Both the position numbers and the translations under genes were made by a program. Source: Thermoanaerobaculia bacterium (GTDB taxonomy: Bacteria; Acidobacteriota; Thermoanaerobaculia; Multivoradales; JAIOJS01). From it: a DNA stretch of 56,180 bases. Positions 44,684-51,018 of the stretch are shown here, piece after piece; position 1 is the first letter of the stretch; every line of letters starts with the position of its first letter. Location: contig JAUIDB010000027.1 in NCBI GenBank assembly GCA_030429235.1, positions 1 through 56,180 of the forward strand. The letters are read 5' to 3'. The notes under the pieces were generated by a model, which had not been told where the DNA came from, did not search any database, and saw only the letters and a program-made list of their open reading frames with translations.

Positions 44684-45766
44684 ATGCCCAACACGCCCCC
44701 CCGTTCCGGGGAGATCGCTGGCGCCGAGGCGACCGCAGCCTCGGACACGCTCGACGGCCTCGTCGACCGCAAGGCCGACCACATTCGTCTCGCGCTCGAT
44801 CGACGGATGCAGGCCGACCAGAGCGTCTTCGCCGCCTGGCGGTTCGGGCACGTGGCCCTTCCCGAGATCGATCGCGACGCCATCGACCTGCGGACACCGT
44901 TCCTCGGCCGCACTCTGGAACTGCCCCTCCTGATCTCGTGTATGACCGGGGGCACGGACCTGGCGGCCCGAGTGAACCGTAATCTCGCGCTCGCCGCCCA
45001 GCGCGCCGGCGTCGCTCTGGGGCTCGGATCGCAGCGGAAGGCTCTCGAGGATCCGAGTCAGGCCGAGACCTTCAAGGTCCGGGAACTGGCTCCGGACGTT
45101 CCCTTGATCGGCAACCTCGGAGCCGTGCAGTTCAACTACGGCTACGGACTCGAGGAGTGCCGTGCCGCCGTCGACATGATCGATGCCGACGCCCTCGCTC
45201 TGCACCTCAATCCCCTGCAGGAGGCGATTCAACCCGAAGGACAGTGTGACTTCTCCGAACTCCTCCCCCGAATCCGTAGCGTCGTGCAAGACCTCGAGGT
45301 CCCGGTGATCGTCAAGGAGGTGGGATCAGGGCTCTCAGCTGCGACCGGCCGGCGGCTCCTCGACGTTGGGGTGCCCATCCTCGACACCGCTGGGGTCGGA
45401 GGCACCAGTTGGGCTCGCATCGAGGCGGCGCGAGCCAGCGACCTTCCGATCGGCGAGCTGTTCGCCGACTGGGGCCTGTCGACTCCCGAGAGCCTCCTCC
45501 AACTCCGCCCCCTGTCCTCCGACTTCACCCTGATCGGTAGCGGAGGTCTCCGCAGTGGTCTGGACGCGGCGAAGGCGCTGGCCCTGGGCGCCGATCTGGT
45601 AGGGATCGCCCAACCCTTCCTGGCCGCCGCCCTCGACTCGGCCGAGGCGGTGGTGGATCGAATCGAGCGCACGCGCCAGGAACTCGAGATTGCCATGTTC
45701 TGCCTTGGGGTGACCCGACCTACCGACTTGCGACGCGCCGAACTAAGCAGGAGAGATACGCCGTGA
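44684..45766 (+). CDS. fni: isopentenyl-diphosphate delta-isomerase, type 2 (FMN)
   Basis: 360 residues. Converts IPP to DMAPP with reduced FMN. Signature blocks: LPLLISCMTGGTDLAARVNR, LGLGSQRKALEDP, GNLGAVQFNYG, LNPLQEAIQPEG, VIVKEVGSGLS (FMN contact), DTAGVGGTSWARIEA and IGSGGLRSGLDAAKALALGAD. Type 2 isomerases are common in archaea and mevalonate-pathway bacteria. First gene of the isoprenoid cluster. Its stop overlaps the GTG start of the HMG-CoA reductase gene. Confidence 0.95.
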   Translation: MPNTPPRSGEIAGAEATAASDTLDGLVDRKADHIRLALDRRMQADQSVFAAWRFGHVALPEIDRDAIDLRTPFLGRTLELPLLISCMTGGTDLAARVNRNLALAAQRAGVALGLGSQRKALEDPSQAETFKVRELAPDVPLIGNLGAVQFNYGYGLEECRAAVDMIDADALALHLNPLQEAIQPEGQCDFSELLPRIRSVVQDLEVPVIVKEVGSGLSAATGRRLLDVGVPILDTAGVGGTSWARIEAARASDLPIGELFADWGLSTPESLLQLRPLSSDFTLIGSGGLRSGLDAAKALALGADLVGIAQPFLAAALDSAEAVVDRIERTRQELEIAMFCLGVTRPTDLRRAELSRRDTP

Positions 45767-47031
45767 GCCAGAGTGCCCCTACCCACAACTCCACTGTCGA
45801 CGACCTGGTCCGTGACCTGGTCGAACGGCGTATCCGCATGCACCAGATCCCCTCCGATCTGTCGGCCGAGGAGGCAGCCGAGGTTCGGCGGCGGGCGCTG
45901 GAAGAGCAGGCTTCCGTGTCGCTCGACCACATGCGGCGCTACTCCTTCGATGTCGATGTCGCGTCGAGCCGAAACTGCGAGAACCTCATCGGCGTCGCCC
46001 AGGTGCCCATCGGAATCGTAGGGCCCGTGCCGGTCCGCGGTGACACGGTCGAGGACGAGGTCTACGTGCCCCTCGCCACCACCGAAGGGGCGCTGATCGC
46101 GAGTACGAATCGGGGCTGTGCTGCCCTGCGGGCCGCGGGCGGCGCTCGGGTCTATGTCGAGGACGTGGGGATGACGCGGGCCCCGGTGTTCCGTACCAGC
46201 GGTATCGATGAGAGCCGGCGCTTCGTCGCCTGGATCGAGGAGCACGAGGACGAGATCCGCGACCTGGCTCGCGCCACCAGTCGGTTCCTCGAACTGGTCT
46301 CGATCCGACCCTTCGTTTTCAGTACCACCGTCTTCGTGCGGTTCCGCTTCCAATCGGGGGACGCCATGGGGATGAACATGGCGACCATCGCCTGCGATCG
46401 GATCGTGACCAACCTGATCGAGCCTTCCACAGGGGTGCACTGCACCGCCCTCTCTGGGAACTACTGCGTCGACAAGAAACCCGCCGCCGTCAACTTCCAG
46501 GAGGGGCGGGGAAAACGGCTGTTCGCCGAGGTGGAGATTCCGGCCGAGGTTCTGAGCCGCACCCTCAAGACCAACCCGGCCGATCTGGTGGAAGTGCAGT
46601 ACCGAAAGAACCTGCTGGGCTCGATCGCGGCCGGGTCCTCAGGCTTCAACGCACACTTTGCCAACGTGCTGGCTGGCTTCTTCATCGCCACCGGGCAAGA
46701 CCTGGCGCATGTCGTCGACGGTTCGACGGGGGTGACGTTCGTCGAGGAGCGACCCAACGGAGCCGCCTACTTCTCGGTCTTCCTCCCCACCGTCCCGCTC
46801 GGGGCGATCGGAGGCGGCACCGGGCTGGCCACACAGAGTGAGGCCCTGAAGCTGCTCGGCGTCGCCGTCGACCCCGACCGCCCGGGACAGGCCGTGATGC
46901 GCCTGGCAGAGATCCTCGCCGCCACGGTTCTGGCGGGCGAGTTGTCACTGATGGCCGCCTTCACCTCGCGCGATCTCGCCAGCGCCCACGAACGACTGGG
47001 CCGAGGCCCCGCCGACGCAACAGAAGGCTAG
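45763..47031 (+). CDS. hydroxymethylglutaryl-CoA reductase, class I
   Basis: 422 residues, GTG start. Reduces HMG-CoA to mevalonate with NADPH. Catalytic residues visible: Glu in ATTEGALIAS, Lys in NYCVDKKPAAVN, Asp in GDAMGMNMAT, His in SAHERLGRG. IGIVGPVPV and IGGGTGLATQSEALKLLG are also present. The arrangement is the class I (eukaryal/archaeal-like) type rather than class II (Pseudomonas mevalonii type). No membrane segment at the N-terminus. Central gene for entry into the mevalonate pathway. HMG-CoA synthase is not in the window. Confidence 0.96.
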   Translation: MSQSAPTHNSTVDDLVRDLVERRIRMHQIPSDLSAEEAAEVRRRALEEQASVSLDHMRRYSFDVDVASSRNCENLIGVAQVPIGIVGPVPVRGDTVEDEVYVPLATTEGALIASTNRGCAALRAAGGARVYVEDVGMTRAPVFRTSGIDESRRFVAWIEEHEDEIRDLARATSRFLELVSIRPFVFSTTVFVRFRFQSGDAMGMNMATIACDRIVTNLIEPSTGVHCTALSGNYCVDKKPAAVNFQEGRGKRLFAEVEIPAEVLSRTLKTNPADLVEVQYRKNLLGSIAAGSSGFNAHFANVLAGFFIATGQDLAHVVDGSTGVTFVEERPNGAAYFSVFLPTVPLGAIGGGTGLATQSEALKLLGVAVDPDRPGQAVMRLAEILAATVLAGELSLMAAFTSRDLASAHERLGRGPADATEG

Positions 47032-47047
47032 CCTCGGAGTCACCACC

Positions 47048-48235
47048 ATGGGCACGCCGGCTCCTGCTCCCCCCCGACACCGGGTTTCGGTCTCGGCTCC
47101 GGGCAAGTTGATCCTGATGGGTGAACACGCGGCGGTCTACGGCCACCCCGCACTGGTCGCCGCCATCGATCTGCGACTCGTGGTCACGGCGACCGCCCAG
47201 GTGGAGACCGAGGAACCAGGAGTCGAACTCGAGCTGCCGCAGCTCGGCTACTGTGGCCTGGTTCCCTGGTCGGAGATCTGGACCGCCACCGACTCCGCTC
47301 GGGTCTCCTGGCGCCGACAGTTCGGAGATGCCACCAAGCCGGCGGAAGGTCCTGCCGTCGAATCCATGCGGCGCCCGGCCCGAGACACCACGCGCGCGAC
47401 CTCGGAGACCGTCGGGGTGACACCAGCTCAGTTGGTCCAGTTGGCACTCGGCGAAGCCTCGCGGCGACTGGGAGAGAGCCTCGACAGCCCCGACCTGCAC
47501 CCCGCCTCGCTGCGGCTTCGCATCGACTCCGAACTACCGGTGGGAGCTGGGTTCGGAAGTTCGGCTTCGTTGGCGGTGGCCGTGGCGGCGGCCTACGGGG
47601 CACTTAGGGGTCGAGAGTTCGACCGGCCGACCCTGCTCGAACTCTCGCTGGATGTCGAGCGGCGCCAGCACGGGACGCCCTCCGGCATCGACAACGCGGC
47701 GGTCCTCTACGGCGGCCTCCTGTGGGCGGAACCGAACCCGGCCGGACCGCCGACCTGCGAGCCACTTTCGGCCTACTCGCCTCTCCTCGGCTGCTTCCAG
47801 GTGTTCCACTCAGGTGCACCGGGCGAATCGACCGGCGTCGTCGTCGGAGCGGTCCGCCGCAAACTGGAGCAGGCTCCGGAGGTGATCCATCGAGCCTTCG
47901 ACGTCATCGGCAGCTGTACTCGCACCCTCCTGCGCTACCTCGAGGACGGAGCCACTCGTCAGGACACTGCCCGTCTCATCCGACGCTGCGGCCACGCGCT
48001 GGAGAGCCTCGGGGTGGTTCCCGAGCCGATTCGCGAACTGATCCGACGGATCGAGCAGGCGGGTGGTGCCGCCAAAATCTCTGGGGCCGGCAGTTTGACC
48101 GGCACCGGAGCCGGGTCGATTCTGGTGTTCCACCCGGAGCCCGAGGTATTCCAGGAGAACAGTTTCCTACAGAGCTGGCGCAAGCTACCGATCCAGTTCC
48201 CCGCACCGGGCCTCGTCCTCGAAGCGATCTCCTGA
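47048..48235 (+). CDS. mvk: mevalonate kinase (GHMP kinase family)
   Basis: 395 residues. N-terminal SAPGKLILMGEHAAVYGHPA and the ATP loop LPVGAGFGSSASLAVA; GTPSGIDNAAVLYGG carries the catalytic Asp; the C-terminal GHMP loop is KISGAGSLTGTGAGS. The first block is the mevalonate-kinase form. Phosphomevalonate kinase is excluded because its N-terminal motif lacks GEH/YG. Residues about 105-140 are an insert rich in Thr/Arg. Phosphorylates mevalonate at C5. It follows the reductase by 16 bp and precedes the decarboxylase by 8 bp. Confidence 0.92.
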   Translation: MGTPAPAPPRHRVSVSAPGKLILMGEHAAVYGHPALVAAIDLRLVVTATAQVETEEPGVELELPQLGYCGLVPWSEIWTATDSARVSWRRQFGDATKPAEGPAVESMRRPARDTTRATSETVGVTPAQLVQLALGEASRRLGESLDSPDLHPASLRLRIDSELPVGAGFGSSASLAVAVAAAYGALRGREFDRPTLLELSLDVERRQHGTPSGIDNAAVLYGGLLWAEPNPAGPPTCEPLSAYSPLLGCFQVFHSGAPGESTGVVVGAVRRKLEQAPEVIHRAFDVIGSCTRTLLRYLEDGATRQDTARLIRRCGHALESLGVVPEPIRELIRRIEQAGGAAKISGAGSLTGTGAGSILVFHPEPEVFQENSFLQSWRKLPIQFPAPGLVLEAIS

Positions 48236-48243
48236 GAGACCTG

Positions 48244-49251
48244 ATGAAGACCGCAACCTACTCTGCACCGTCCAACATCGCCTTCATCAAGTATTGGGGC
48301 GCGACCGATCTCGACCGGGTCCTGCCCTCCAATCCATCGATTTCGATGACCCTCTCGGAGTGCCGGAGCCAGACCACGGTCCGCTTCGAGCCGGGGGTAC
48401 GGGCACCGGACGAGATCTTCCTCTTCGACTCCCGGGACCAGCCGGTGCCGCTCACCGAACCGTTTCGTCGGGGGATCGAGCGACACCTCGCCGCGGCACG
48501 CCAGCGCTACGGAATCGAGGGCTGCTTCCACATCGCGACCCGCAACAACTTTCCGGCCCAGGCAGGCCTGGCGAGTTCGGCCTCGGGCTTCGCGGCCTTG
48601 GCCGCGGGCATCAACGAGGCGGCCGATCTCGGGCTAGATCCAGCGGGCCTCTCGGACCTCGCGCGGATCAGTGGCTCGGGCTCGGCCTCGCGTTCGGTCT
48701 TCGGTGGCTTCGTGGAGTGGCCTGCCTCCGCGGAGGCAACCTCGGCCCGCCGCATCGCTCCTGCGGATTACTGGGCGTTGTCCGATGTCATCGCGATCGT
48801 CGAATCCGGTGGCAAGGAGGTCTCCTCGCGACAGGGTCATCGGCGCGCCGCCGCCAGCCCCCACTTCGCCCGACGACAGGAGCTGCTCCCACAGCGTCTG
48901 GCCACGGTTCGTTCGGCCATCTCCAATCGTGACCTGGAGACCCTCGGTCCGATTCTCGAAGAGGAGGCGATCGAACTCCATCTCGTCGCCATGTCGTCGC
49001 ACCCGCCCATCTTCTACTGGAAGCCGGCCACGCTGACCGTACTCGAGGCGGTGCGGCGACTCCGGTCGGACGGGGTGTCTGCCTGGGCGACCATGGACGC
49101 GGGCGCCAACGTACACGTACTCTGCGCCACTACGAGTGAACGAGAGGTGGCCACTGCTCTCTCCCGGGTTCCGGGAGTGCTCCAGGTCCTTCCCGACCGC
49201 ATCGGTACGGGACCCCGGCGCCATGAAGAGGCCGTGGGAACCGCCCCGTGA
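48244..49251 (+). CDS. mevalonate-(di)phosphate decarboxylase family; probable mevalonate-5-phosphate decarboxylase
   Basis: 335 residues from ATG 48244 (GAGAG site). N-terminal NIAFIKYWGATDLDRVLPSN, central GLASSASGFAALA, R150 in SGSGSASRSVFGGF and D285 in TMDAGANVHVL (the family's catalytic Arg and Asp). In classical diphosphomevalonate decarboxylases the sequence is KYWGK; here A20 follows KYWG, so that lysine is missing. Together with the isopentenyl phosphate kinase that overlaps its 3' end, and with no phosphomevalonate kinase, I infer decarboxylation of mevalonate-5-phosphate to isopentenyl phosphate. Diphosphomevalonate decarboxylase activity is the alternative. Confidence 0.85.
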   Translation: MKTATYSAPSNIAFIKYWGATDLDRVLPSNPSISMTLSECRSQTTVRFEPGVRAPDEIFLFDSRDQPVPLTEPFRRGIERHLAAARQRYGIEGCFHIATRNNFPAQAGLASSASGFAALAAGINEAADLGLDPAGLSDLARISGSGSASRSVFGGFVEWPASAEATSARRIAPADYWALSDVIAIVESGGKEVSSRQGHRRAAASPHFARRQELLPQRLATVRSAISNRDLETLGPILEEEAIELHLVAMSSHPPIFYWKPATLTVLEAVRRLRSDGVSAWATMDAGANVHVLCATTSEREVATALSRVPGVLQVLPDRIGTGPRRHEEAVGTAP

Positions 49252-50063
49252 GCCCCCGCCAGCCCCTGAGTCTGATCAAACTGGGCGGCAGTCTGATCAC
49301 CGACAAGGCTGAACCCGAGACTCCTCGCACCGAGACCATCGCACGCCTGGCCGCCGAGATCGCGGCCGGCCGCGCTTCGGATCGTCTACCGCTGATCGTC
49401 GGCCACGGAAGCGGTTCCTTCGGACACAGCGTCGCCGCGGAGTTCGGAATCTCGCAAGGGGGCACGACCGAACCGTCCTCGGCCGGAGTGAGCGCCACGC
49501 AATCGGCCGCGCATCGTCTCCACCGGTTGGTAGTAGCCAGCCTGGCCGACCACGGGGTACTGCCCTATTCGTTACCCCCCAGCTCCTGGTGCGTGGTCGA
49601 CGAGGGCGAAGTGACGATTCTGACGATGGAACCGCTCTGTCGCGCTCTGGACCTCGGCCTGGTGCCGGTCGTGTGCGGCGATGTCCTTCTGGACCGACAA
49701 TACGGAAGTTCGATCGCTTCGACGGAATCGGTTCTCGTCGCCCTGGCCCGCCGGCTCGAAGAGTCCGGCGACTTTGCGCCTGCACGAGCCCTCTGGTTCG
49801 GCAATACCGCCGGCGTGCTCGACTCCGTCGGCGCCACCATCCCCAGACTCGATCCCGACCAGGTCGACCTGGACTCGCTGCGCCGCCCCGAGGTGCCCGA
49901 CGTCACCGGCGGCATCCATCTCCGACTGGCAGCCACCCAAGCCCTTGCTCGGCTGGGCGTGACCTCGTTGATCGCGGATGGTCGGCAGCCAGGGCTCGTC
50001 CAGCGCGCCCTAGCCGGTGAGGCCTGTCCCGGTACCCTGGTGCCGGCAGACCCTAGATCTTGA
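49248..50063 (+). CDS. isopentenyl phosphate kinase (amino-acid kinase fold)
   Basis: 271 residues, GTG start overlapping the decarboxylase stop. Phosphorylates isopentenyl phosphate to IPP. N-terminal KLGGSLITDK (K11, K20) and HGSGSFGH (53-60), in which H60 corresponds to the catalytic histidine unique to these kinases. FGNTAGVLD, PDVTGGIHLRL and the terminal GTLV are also typical. Acetylglutamate, glutamate-5- and aspartate kinases lack the HGxGSFGH histidine, so they are excluded. These kinases are known from archaea, plants and a few bacteria such as Roseiflexus. It completes the alternative mevalonate route in this cluster. Confidence 0.93.
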   Translation: MSPRQPLSLIKLGGSLITDKAEPETPRTETIARLAAEIAAGRASDRLPLIVGHGSGSFGHSVAAEFGISQGGTTEPSSAGVSATQSAAHRLHRLVVASLADHGVLPYSLPPSSWCVVDEGEVTILTMEPLCRALDLGLVPVVCGDVLLDRQYGSSIASTESVLVALARRLEESGDFAPARALWFGNTAGVLDSVGATIPRLDPDQVDLDSLRRPEVPDVTGGIHLRLAATQALARLGVTSLIADGRQPGLVQRALAGEACPGTLVPADPRS

Positions 50064-50101
50064 CGGGTCTCCTAGCTGGGCCATCGGTCCGGCTGACGGG
50101 C

Positions 50102-50107
50102 TAAGAT
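50102..50107 (+). promoter_or_regulatory. candidate -10 element (TAAGAT) of the squalene-synthase-like gene, leaderless arrangement
   Basis: GC-TAAGAT, then 8 nt, then ATG 50116. No ribosome-binding site is visible in the 52-bp gap. The gene could be read both from the operon and from this site. Confidence 0.4.
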
Positions 50108-50115
50108 ACCGCCCC

Positions 50116-51018
50116 ATGGCCGACCTCGACGACCTCCTCGAGAAGACGAGTCGCACCTTTGCGCTGACGATCCCGCTCCTTCCCGAGCCCACCCGCCGCG
50201 AGGTCACCCTGGCCTACCTGCTCTTCCGCATCGCCGATACCTTCGAGGATGCTACGACCTGGCCGGGACACCAACGGATCGACGCCCTGGAGGAGTTCGG
50301 CCGGCTGCTCGCGGTCGACGAGGATCGAGTTTCGACCGAAGCCGCCACCCGCCGTTGGATGGAAGACCCACCCGACGATCGTCACAGTGGCTACCTCGAA
50401 CTGATCGCCGAGGTGCCCTTCGTCTTCGATCTGTTCTGGCAGCTCGATTCCGCGGCTCGGAGCACCATCCGCCGCCATCTGGCGCGAACGGTGGAGGGAA
50501 TGGCTCGCTACGTGGCCACCGGCGACGGAAGCAGCCGACTGGAGCTCTCCAGCCTGCAGTCGCTGCGCGACTACTGCTACATCGTCGCCGGAATCGTCGG
50601 CGAGATGCTCACCGACCTCTACCTCACCGAGGATCCCAGCCTCGCGGAGAGCGGGCCCTACCTGCGAGAGCGCGCTCGCGACTTCGGCGAGGCGCTGCAA
50701 TTGGTTAACATCCTCAAGGACTCCGCTCGCGACGACGCCGATGGCCGCCGCTACCTGCCCAGTGATTGTTCGGTGGCGGACGTCTTCGACCTGGCGCGGT
50801 CCGATTTCGCTCGAGCCCGTGAGTACGTGCTCGAGATCCAGCAACGGGGCGCAGCCCGGGGGCTGACCGCCTTCAACGCACTACCGCTCCTCCTCGCGCG
50901 GGCCAGCCTGGACCGGGTCGAAGAGGCAGGACCCGGCGCCAAGATCAGTCGGCCCGAGGTCTACGCGATCGTCGCCGAGATGGAGCGAGCTCTGGACGCT
51001 GGCGAACCCGTCGTCTAG
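50116..51018 (+). CDS. squalene/phytoene synthase family protein, squalene-synthase-like
   Basis: 300 residues. Head-to-head prenyl synthase fold: first Asp-rich motif DTFED (41-45), the SRTFALTIPLLP start, YCYIVAGIVGEMLTDLY and second motif ALQLVNILKDSARDD. The LVNILKD form is nearer to bacterial squalene synthases than to phytoene synthases, which have TNILRD. It would join two farnesyl diphosphates to squalene (hopanoid or carotenoid C30 precursor). Specificity is not certain. ATG 50116. It extends the isoprenoid cluster from C5 supply to a committed C30 product. Confidence 0.87.
   Translation: MADLDDLLEKTSRTFALTIPLLPEPTRREVTLAYLLFRIADTFEDATTWPGHQRIDALEEFGRLLAVDEDRVSTEAATRRWMEDPPDDRHSGYLELIAEVPFVFDLFWQLDSAARSTIRRHLARTVEGMARYVATGDGSSRLELSSLQSLRDYCYIVAGIVGEMLTDLYLTEDPSLAESGPYLRERARDFGEALQLVNILKDSARDDADGRRYLPSDCSVADVFDLARSDFARAREYVLEIQQRGAARGLTAFNALPLLLARASLDRVEEAGPGAKISRPEVYAIVAEMERALDAGEPVV

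Follow-up and report, generated by a model that had tools for sequence, protein, structure and literature searches.

Does the decarboxylase encoded at 48244..49251 (+ strand) act on mevalonate diphosphate (MVAPP), as classical diphosphomevalonate decarboxylases (MDDs) do, or on mevalonate 5-phosphate (MVAP)? The question arises in the window, by which is meant the whole stretch of 56,180 nucleotides that was analyzed, from a Thermoanaerobaculia bacterium of the Acidobacteriota. The open reading frame translates into 335 amino acids with no internal stops, and Pfam, NCBIfam and PDB matches place the protein in the MDD/MPD superfamily, with the Pfam domains MVD-like_N and MDD_C. Judged from the sequence together with the gene context, the gene very probably encodes an (R)-mevalonate 5-phosphate decarboxylase (MPD, also PMD) of the alternative mevalonate pathway, of the haloarchaea/Chloroflexi type.

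Catalytic core and the two specificity positions

The preliminary description had reported the motif KYWG at residues 16-19, followed by Ala20, with R150 and D285 remaining, and both statements are borne out. The translation reads K-Y-W-G-A, codon 20 (48301..48303, + strand) being GCG at the site where MDDs carry the KYWGK lysine (Lys21 in Staphylococcus epidermidis; N20 in the MPD of Anaerolinea thermophila). D285 and R150, the superfamily's catalytic Asp and Arg, are both retained and are invariant among the aligned relatives, and K191 and the GSGSASRS motif are retained as well. A second specificity position, beyond the Ala20 described earlier, is codon 199 (CAT, His; 48838..48840, + strand), which is Met in MDDs and corresponds to H194 of the A. 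thermophila enzyme. A table from 2013 (PMC3857490 Table 4) already lists the loss of Lys21 as an MPD-like feature, and the histidine has been called the 'conserved histidine residue of PMD' (PMC11052028). The window protein has Ala20 and His199 at these sites, and neither of the two MDD residues, the KYWGK Lys (PMC3857490 Table 4) and Met199.

Members of the superfamily from the Thermoplasmatales are likewise without this Lys (PMC3857490 Table 4), and the protein might on that account be a mevalonate-3-kinase or a mevalonate 3,5-bisphosphate decarboxylase of the Thermoplasma-type pathway. Such an assignment is scarcely credible: D285 is kept, whereas the catalytic Asp is lost in mevalonate-3-kinase (PMC9254496), GSGSASRS and K191 are kept too, and the profiles NF040848 and NF040847 score 26 bits against a cut-off of 440 and 28 bits against 560. 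Both activities were ruled out on D285 and the profile scores.

An AlphaFold2 model of the window decarboxylase (pLDDT 87) finds its best PDB match in A. thermophila mevalonate 5-phosphate decarboxylase (E 2e-39, TM about 0.9), which is also the best match by sequence. The two proteins share the fold, 42% identity in the structural alignment, a residue other than Lys at position 20, His at 199/194 and the catalytic Asp and Arg, yet the window protein has Ala20 where the A. thermophila enzyme has Asn20. The kinetics of the latter are reportedly described in a 2019 paper in ACS Chem Biol. Its structures in the PDB comprise complexes with MVAP (6n0x) and MVAPP (6n0y) and the N20K H194M mutant (6n0z); N20 and H194 are also the two positions at which the window protein departs from MDDs. 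An additional residue directly before the ATP-site motif GSGSASRS (window residues 141-150, 48664-48693) is found in the Acidobacteriota decarboxylases linked to isopentenyl phosphate kinase (IPK; relatives L031-L048), compared with both MDDs and the A. thermophila enzyme.

The MPD of Roseiflexus castenholzii (PMC3857490) has also lost the Lys21 equivalent (Leu77), with IPK as its partner and no phosphomevalonate kinase (PMK), yet differs from the window protein with its Ala20, and has Ala201 for Ser145 and Thr255 for Ser195; the compensating Arg83 proposed for it has no equivalent in the window protein (V26). Classical MDDs (S. epidermidis, S. aureus, Enterococcus faecalis) share the overall fold, KYWG, Ser145/Ser147, R150 and D285, whereas their K20 and M199 are replaced by Ala and His in the window protein, and their partner is PMK, not IPK.

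Gene context and the proposed route to IPP

The decarboxylase gene is one of six closely spaced or overlapping genes on the + strand (44684-51018), an apparent operon. It opens with genes for type 2 isopentenyl-diphosphate isomerase (IDI2; 44684..45766, + strand; TIGR02151, 383 bits, over cut-off), HMG-CoA reductase (NADPH) (45763..47031, + strand; TIGR00533, 446 bits, over cut-off) and mevalonate kinase (MVK; 47048..48235, + strand), the last having TIGR00549 as its best family at 161.0 bits, just below the cut-off of 163. The decarboxylase gene follows, and its stop codon is overlapped over 4 bases by the GTG start of an IPK gene (49248..50063, + strand), whose product scores 146 bits with NF040647 (cut-off 120) and has IPKs as its best PDB matches. 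The run is completed by a squalene/phytoene synthase family protein, a downstream user of prenyl diphosphates (50017..51018, + strand, though the true start may be later than 50017; PF00494, over cut-off). IPK is the final enzyme of the alternative pathway, while PMK is the usual partner of MDDs. Dellas et al. 2013 (PMC3857490) described just such a set, MVK, decarboxylase and IPK but no PMK, as the alternative mevalonate pathway. The adjoining IPK also distinguishes the window from the Chloroflexota, in which most loci show no IPK within the stretch examined.

In the genome that carries the window (estimated 100% complete), a search with the PMK family TIGR01220 gave only weak, sub-threshold matches, to MVK and to the homoserine kinase of a threonine operon. 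TIGR01220 is not very sensitive, the control genome of Lactococcus lactis falling below its cut-off; a second search was therefore made with a PMK homologue as protein query, and MVK was its sole match in the same genome. An undetected PMK was rejected on the outcome of these family and protein searches. IPK is encoded and no PMK was found, as the alternative pathway has it; without this kinase, which would supply an MDD with MVAPP, the cell would not be expected to make MVAPP.

In the proposed route, MVK would yield MVAP, and the decarboxylase would use ATP to phosphorylate the 3-hydroxyl (O3) of MVAP and then eliminate phosphate and CO2, as in MDDs, with isopentenyl phosphate (IP) as the product. 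Phosphorylation of IP by the adjacent IPK would give IPP, which IDI2 would then isomerize. By analogy with characterized MDDs, Asp285, Arg150 and Lys191 would play catalytic roles, and the A. thermophila entries suggest that A20 and H199 (K-to-A and M-to-H) reshape the site with which MDDs contact the second phosphate, so that MVAP could bind productively. Literature in favour of the alternative-pathway reading is found in PMC3857490, PMC9254496 and PMC11052028.

In vitro, the decarboxylase may still accept MVAPP as a substrate. Dual specificity like that of the A. thermophila enzyme, with MVAP and MVAPP both accepted in vitro and MVAP used in the cell as the only one of the two that is made, has somewhat less than an even chance of being correct; it is a sub-case of the MPD reading and concerns strictness, not the pathway. 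The A. thermophila N20/H194 enzyme, whose His the window protein shares, was crystallized with both ligands, and both activities have been described for Chloroflexota enzymes of the same motif (PMC11052028); Ala20 is therefore no proof that MVAPP is excluded. Yet Ala is unable to make the side-chain contacts of Asn and has become fixed across most of the clade, and since these genomes have no source of MVAPP, there is no evident selection for keeping its use.

Genes for the MEP-pathway enzymes DXR and IspH are also present (C75:75632-76774 and C91:24384-25214), so that the genome appears to carry both routes to IPP and the alternative pathway need not be essential. A search for HMG-CoA synthase (PF08540, PF01154, TIGR00748) found none in this genome, nor in G001, G017, G059 and G119, although these genomes encode the other enzymes of the mevalonate pathway; HMG-CoA may come from leucine breakdown or from a synthase that has diverged. 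G001, G017 and G059 are without DXR and IspH as well as without a match for the synthase, and an HMG-CoA lyase scores over cut-off in G001 and G017.

Distribution of the two forms

The decarboxylase occurs in 24 of the 297 Acidobacteriota genomes surveyed, in two forms. The H199 form is found in 19 of them, with Ala20 in all 18 that cover that site (one contig ends before position 20), and the K20/M199 form in the other five. Across the 297 genomes, IPK over cut-off is present in exactly the 19 genomes of the H199 form and no others, and no PMK was seen in these 19. In the five K20/M199 genomes the decarboxylase has a PMK homologue as its neighbour, and no IPK exceeds the cut-off; these PMK homologues fall below the NCBI PMK cut-off, with PMK still their best family. 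Since Ala stands in 18/18 same-type homologues covering the site (window included) and Lys in the five of the other type, Ala20 cannot be put down to chance or to a sequencing error. In G144, the IPK and the decarboxylase lie on different contigs.

These counts bear on the possibility that the protein is a classical MDD with a tolerated substitution, served by a PMK too diverged to detect, with the IPK merely salvaging isopentenyl phosphate. The protein does pass the MDD model TIGR01240, and IPK also occurs in eukaryotes with the classical pathway (PMC3857490). Nevertheless, a classical MDD is improbable here: MVK and homoserine kinase are the only kinases that the PMK searches bring up, all 19 genomes with the H199 form have IPK and none shows PMK, and Lys20 is kept in every PMK-linked homologue seen.

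Both DXR and IspH are absent in six of the 19 IPK genomes (G144, G230, G238, G001, G017 and G059), in which IPP is therefore probably made by the alternative route only. Some relatives have one route to IPP and others have both, and G176 has DXR with no IspH detected.

A wider set of 103 loci, in addition to the window, was drawn from Acidobacteriota, Chloroflexota, Planctomycetota, candidate phyla, Bacillota and Proteobacteria; at 54 loci neither kinase lies in the stretch examined. His199 is present in 36/36 IPK-linked homologues, with Ala, Asn, Arg or Thr and never Lys at position 20 (one of these rows is cut off at position 20, the count includes G144, whose IPK is distant, and two row pairs are the same genome from two collections), and K20 with M199 in 14/14 PMK-linked homologues. 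Positions 211 (R/W) and 291 (H/K) split the two groups equally well. When columns 20 and 199 are left out of the tree, the PMK-linked enzymes form one clade (98% SH-aLRT) and the group of the window a separate clade of 23 rows (100%). The split between IPK and PMK, and between non-Lys and Lys, is a single event on this tree, and the correlation thus amounts to one independent comparison; the association of 36/36 against 14/14 was rejected as a series of many independent tests, and the Fisher p = 2e-5 for 19 versus 5 genomes, which treats related genomes as independent, must not be read as if they were. Two related Anaerolineae (L108 and L124) have Leu or Phe at position 20 with Met199, a combination seen nowhere else in the set.

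It had been suggested in the preliminary description that loss of the lysine fits a change from a diphosphate to a monophosphate substrate. The monophosphate part of this proposal is supported by the adjacent IPK gene, the lack of a PMK, the A. thermophila MPD as closest solved relative and the Lys21-replacement signature (PMC3857490 Table 4). Loss of charge alone is insufficient to settle specificity, given the Asn20 enzyme of A. thermophila crystallized with both ligands, the dual activities in Chloroflexota and Arg20 in two IPK-linked enzymes. The latter, from candidate-phyla bacteria (L071 and L076), combine Arg20 with His199, and a positive charge at this site can therefore coexist with the alternative pathway; these enzymes, and the two ligands seen with the Asn20 enzyme, weaken the case for charge loss as the sole switch. 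The pair of non-Lys20 and His199 is a better marker than the loss of the Lys charge alone.

Annotation and meaning for the Acidobacteriota

The window protein scores 220 bits with TIGR01240 (diphosphomevalonate decarboxylase, equivalog), over cut-off, and 141 bits with NF040704 (phosphomevalonate decarboxylase MvaD), below a cut-off of 475 that is an annotation rule and not a biochemical feature. TIGR01240 is passed by all homologues tested, of both kinds, and NF040704 by none, including two from the Chloroflexota (L107 and L084). The models would therefore name the window protein for the wrong substrate, and it is probably misnamed by standard annotation. Residues 20 and 199 separate the MPD and MDD kinds, whereas the profile score does not. 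Counting against the MPD reading are these two model results, the missing Arg83 equivalent, the presence of DXR and IspH, the failure to find HMG-CoA synthase and the one-event split.

The Lys-loss signature and the alternative pathway have already been published (PMC3857490), and Lys and His are treated together in PMC11052028. For Acidobacteriota, no published description of the alternative pathway was found among open-licence papers, a scope that makes the absence of a report weak evidence. One paper (PMC5462960), in which isopentenyl phosphate is not mentioned, reports the non-mevalonate pathway for 31/31 cultivated Acidobacteriota genomes and the majority of the mevalonate-pathway genes for a single SD22 environmental genome.

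The chances are evenly balanced that the Ala20/His199 enzymes constitute a distinct Acidobacteriota clade of MVAP-specific decarboxylases, all named by the models for the wrong substrate, whose pathway is the sole source of IPP in several lineages and exists alongside the MEP pathway elsewhere, as in the organism of the window. On the MPD reading, the pathway described in haloarchaea and Chloroflexota would extend to the Acidobacteriota, and this one phylum would offer a clean contrast between MPD with IPK and MDD with PMK.
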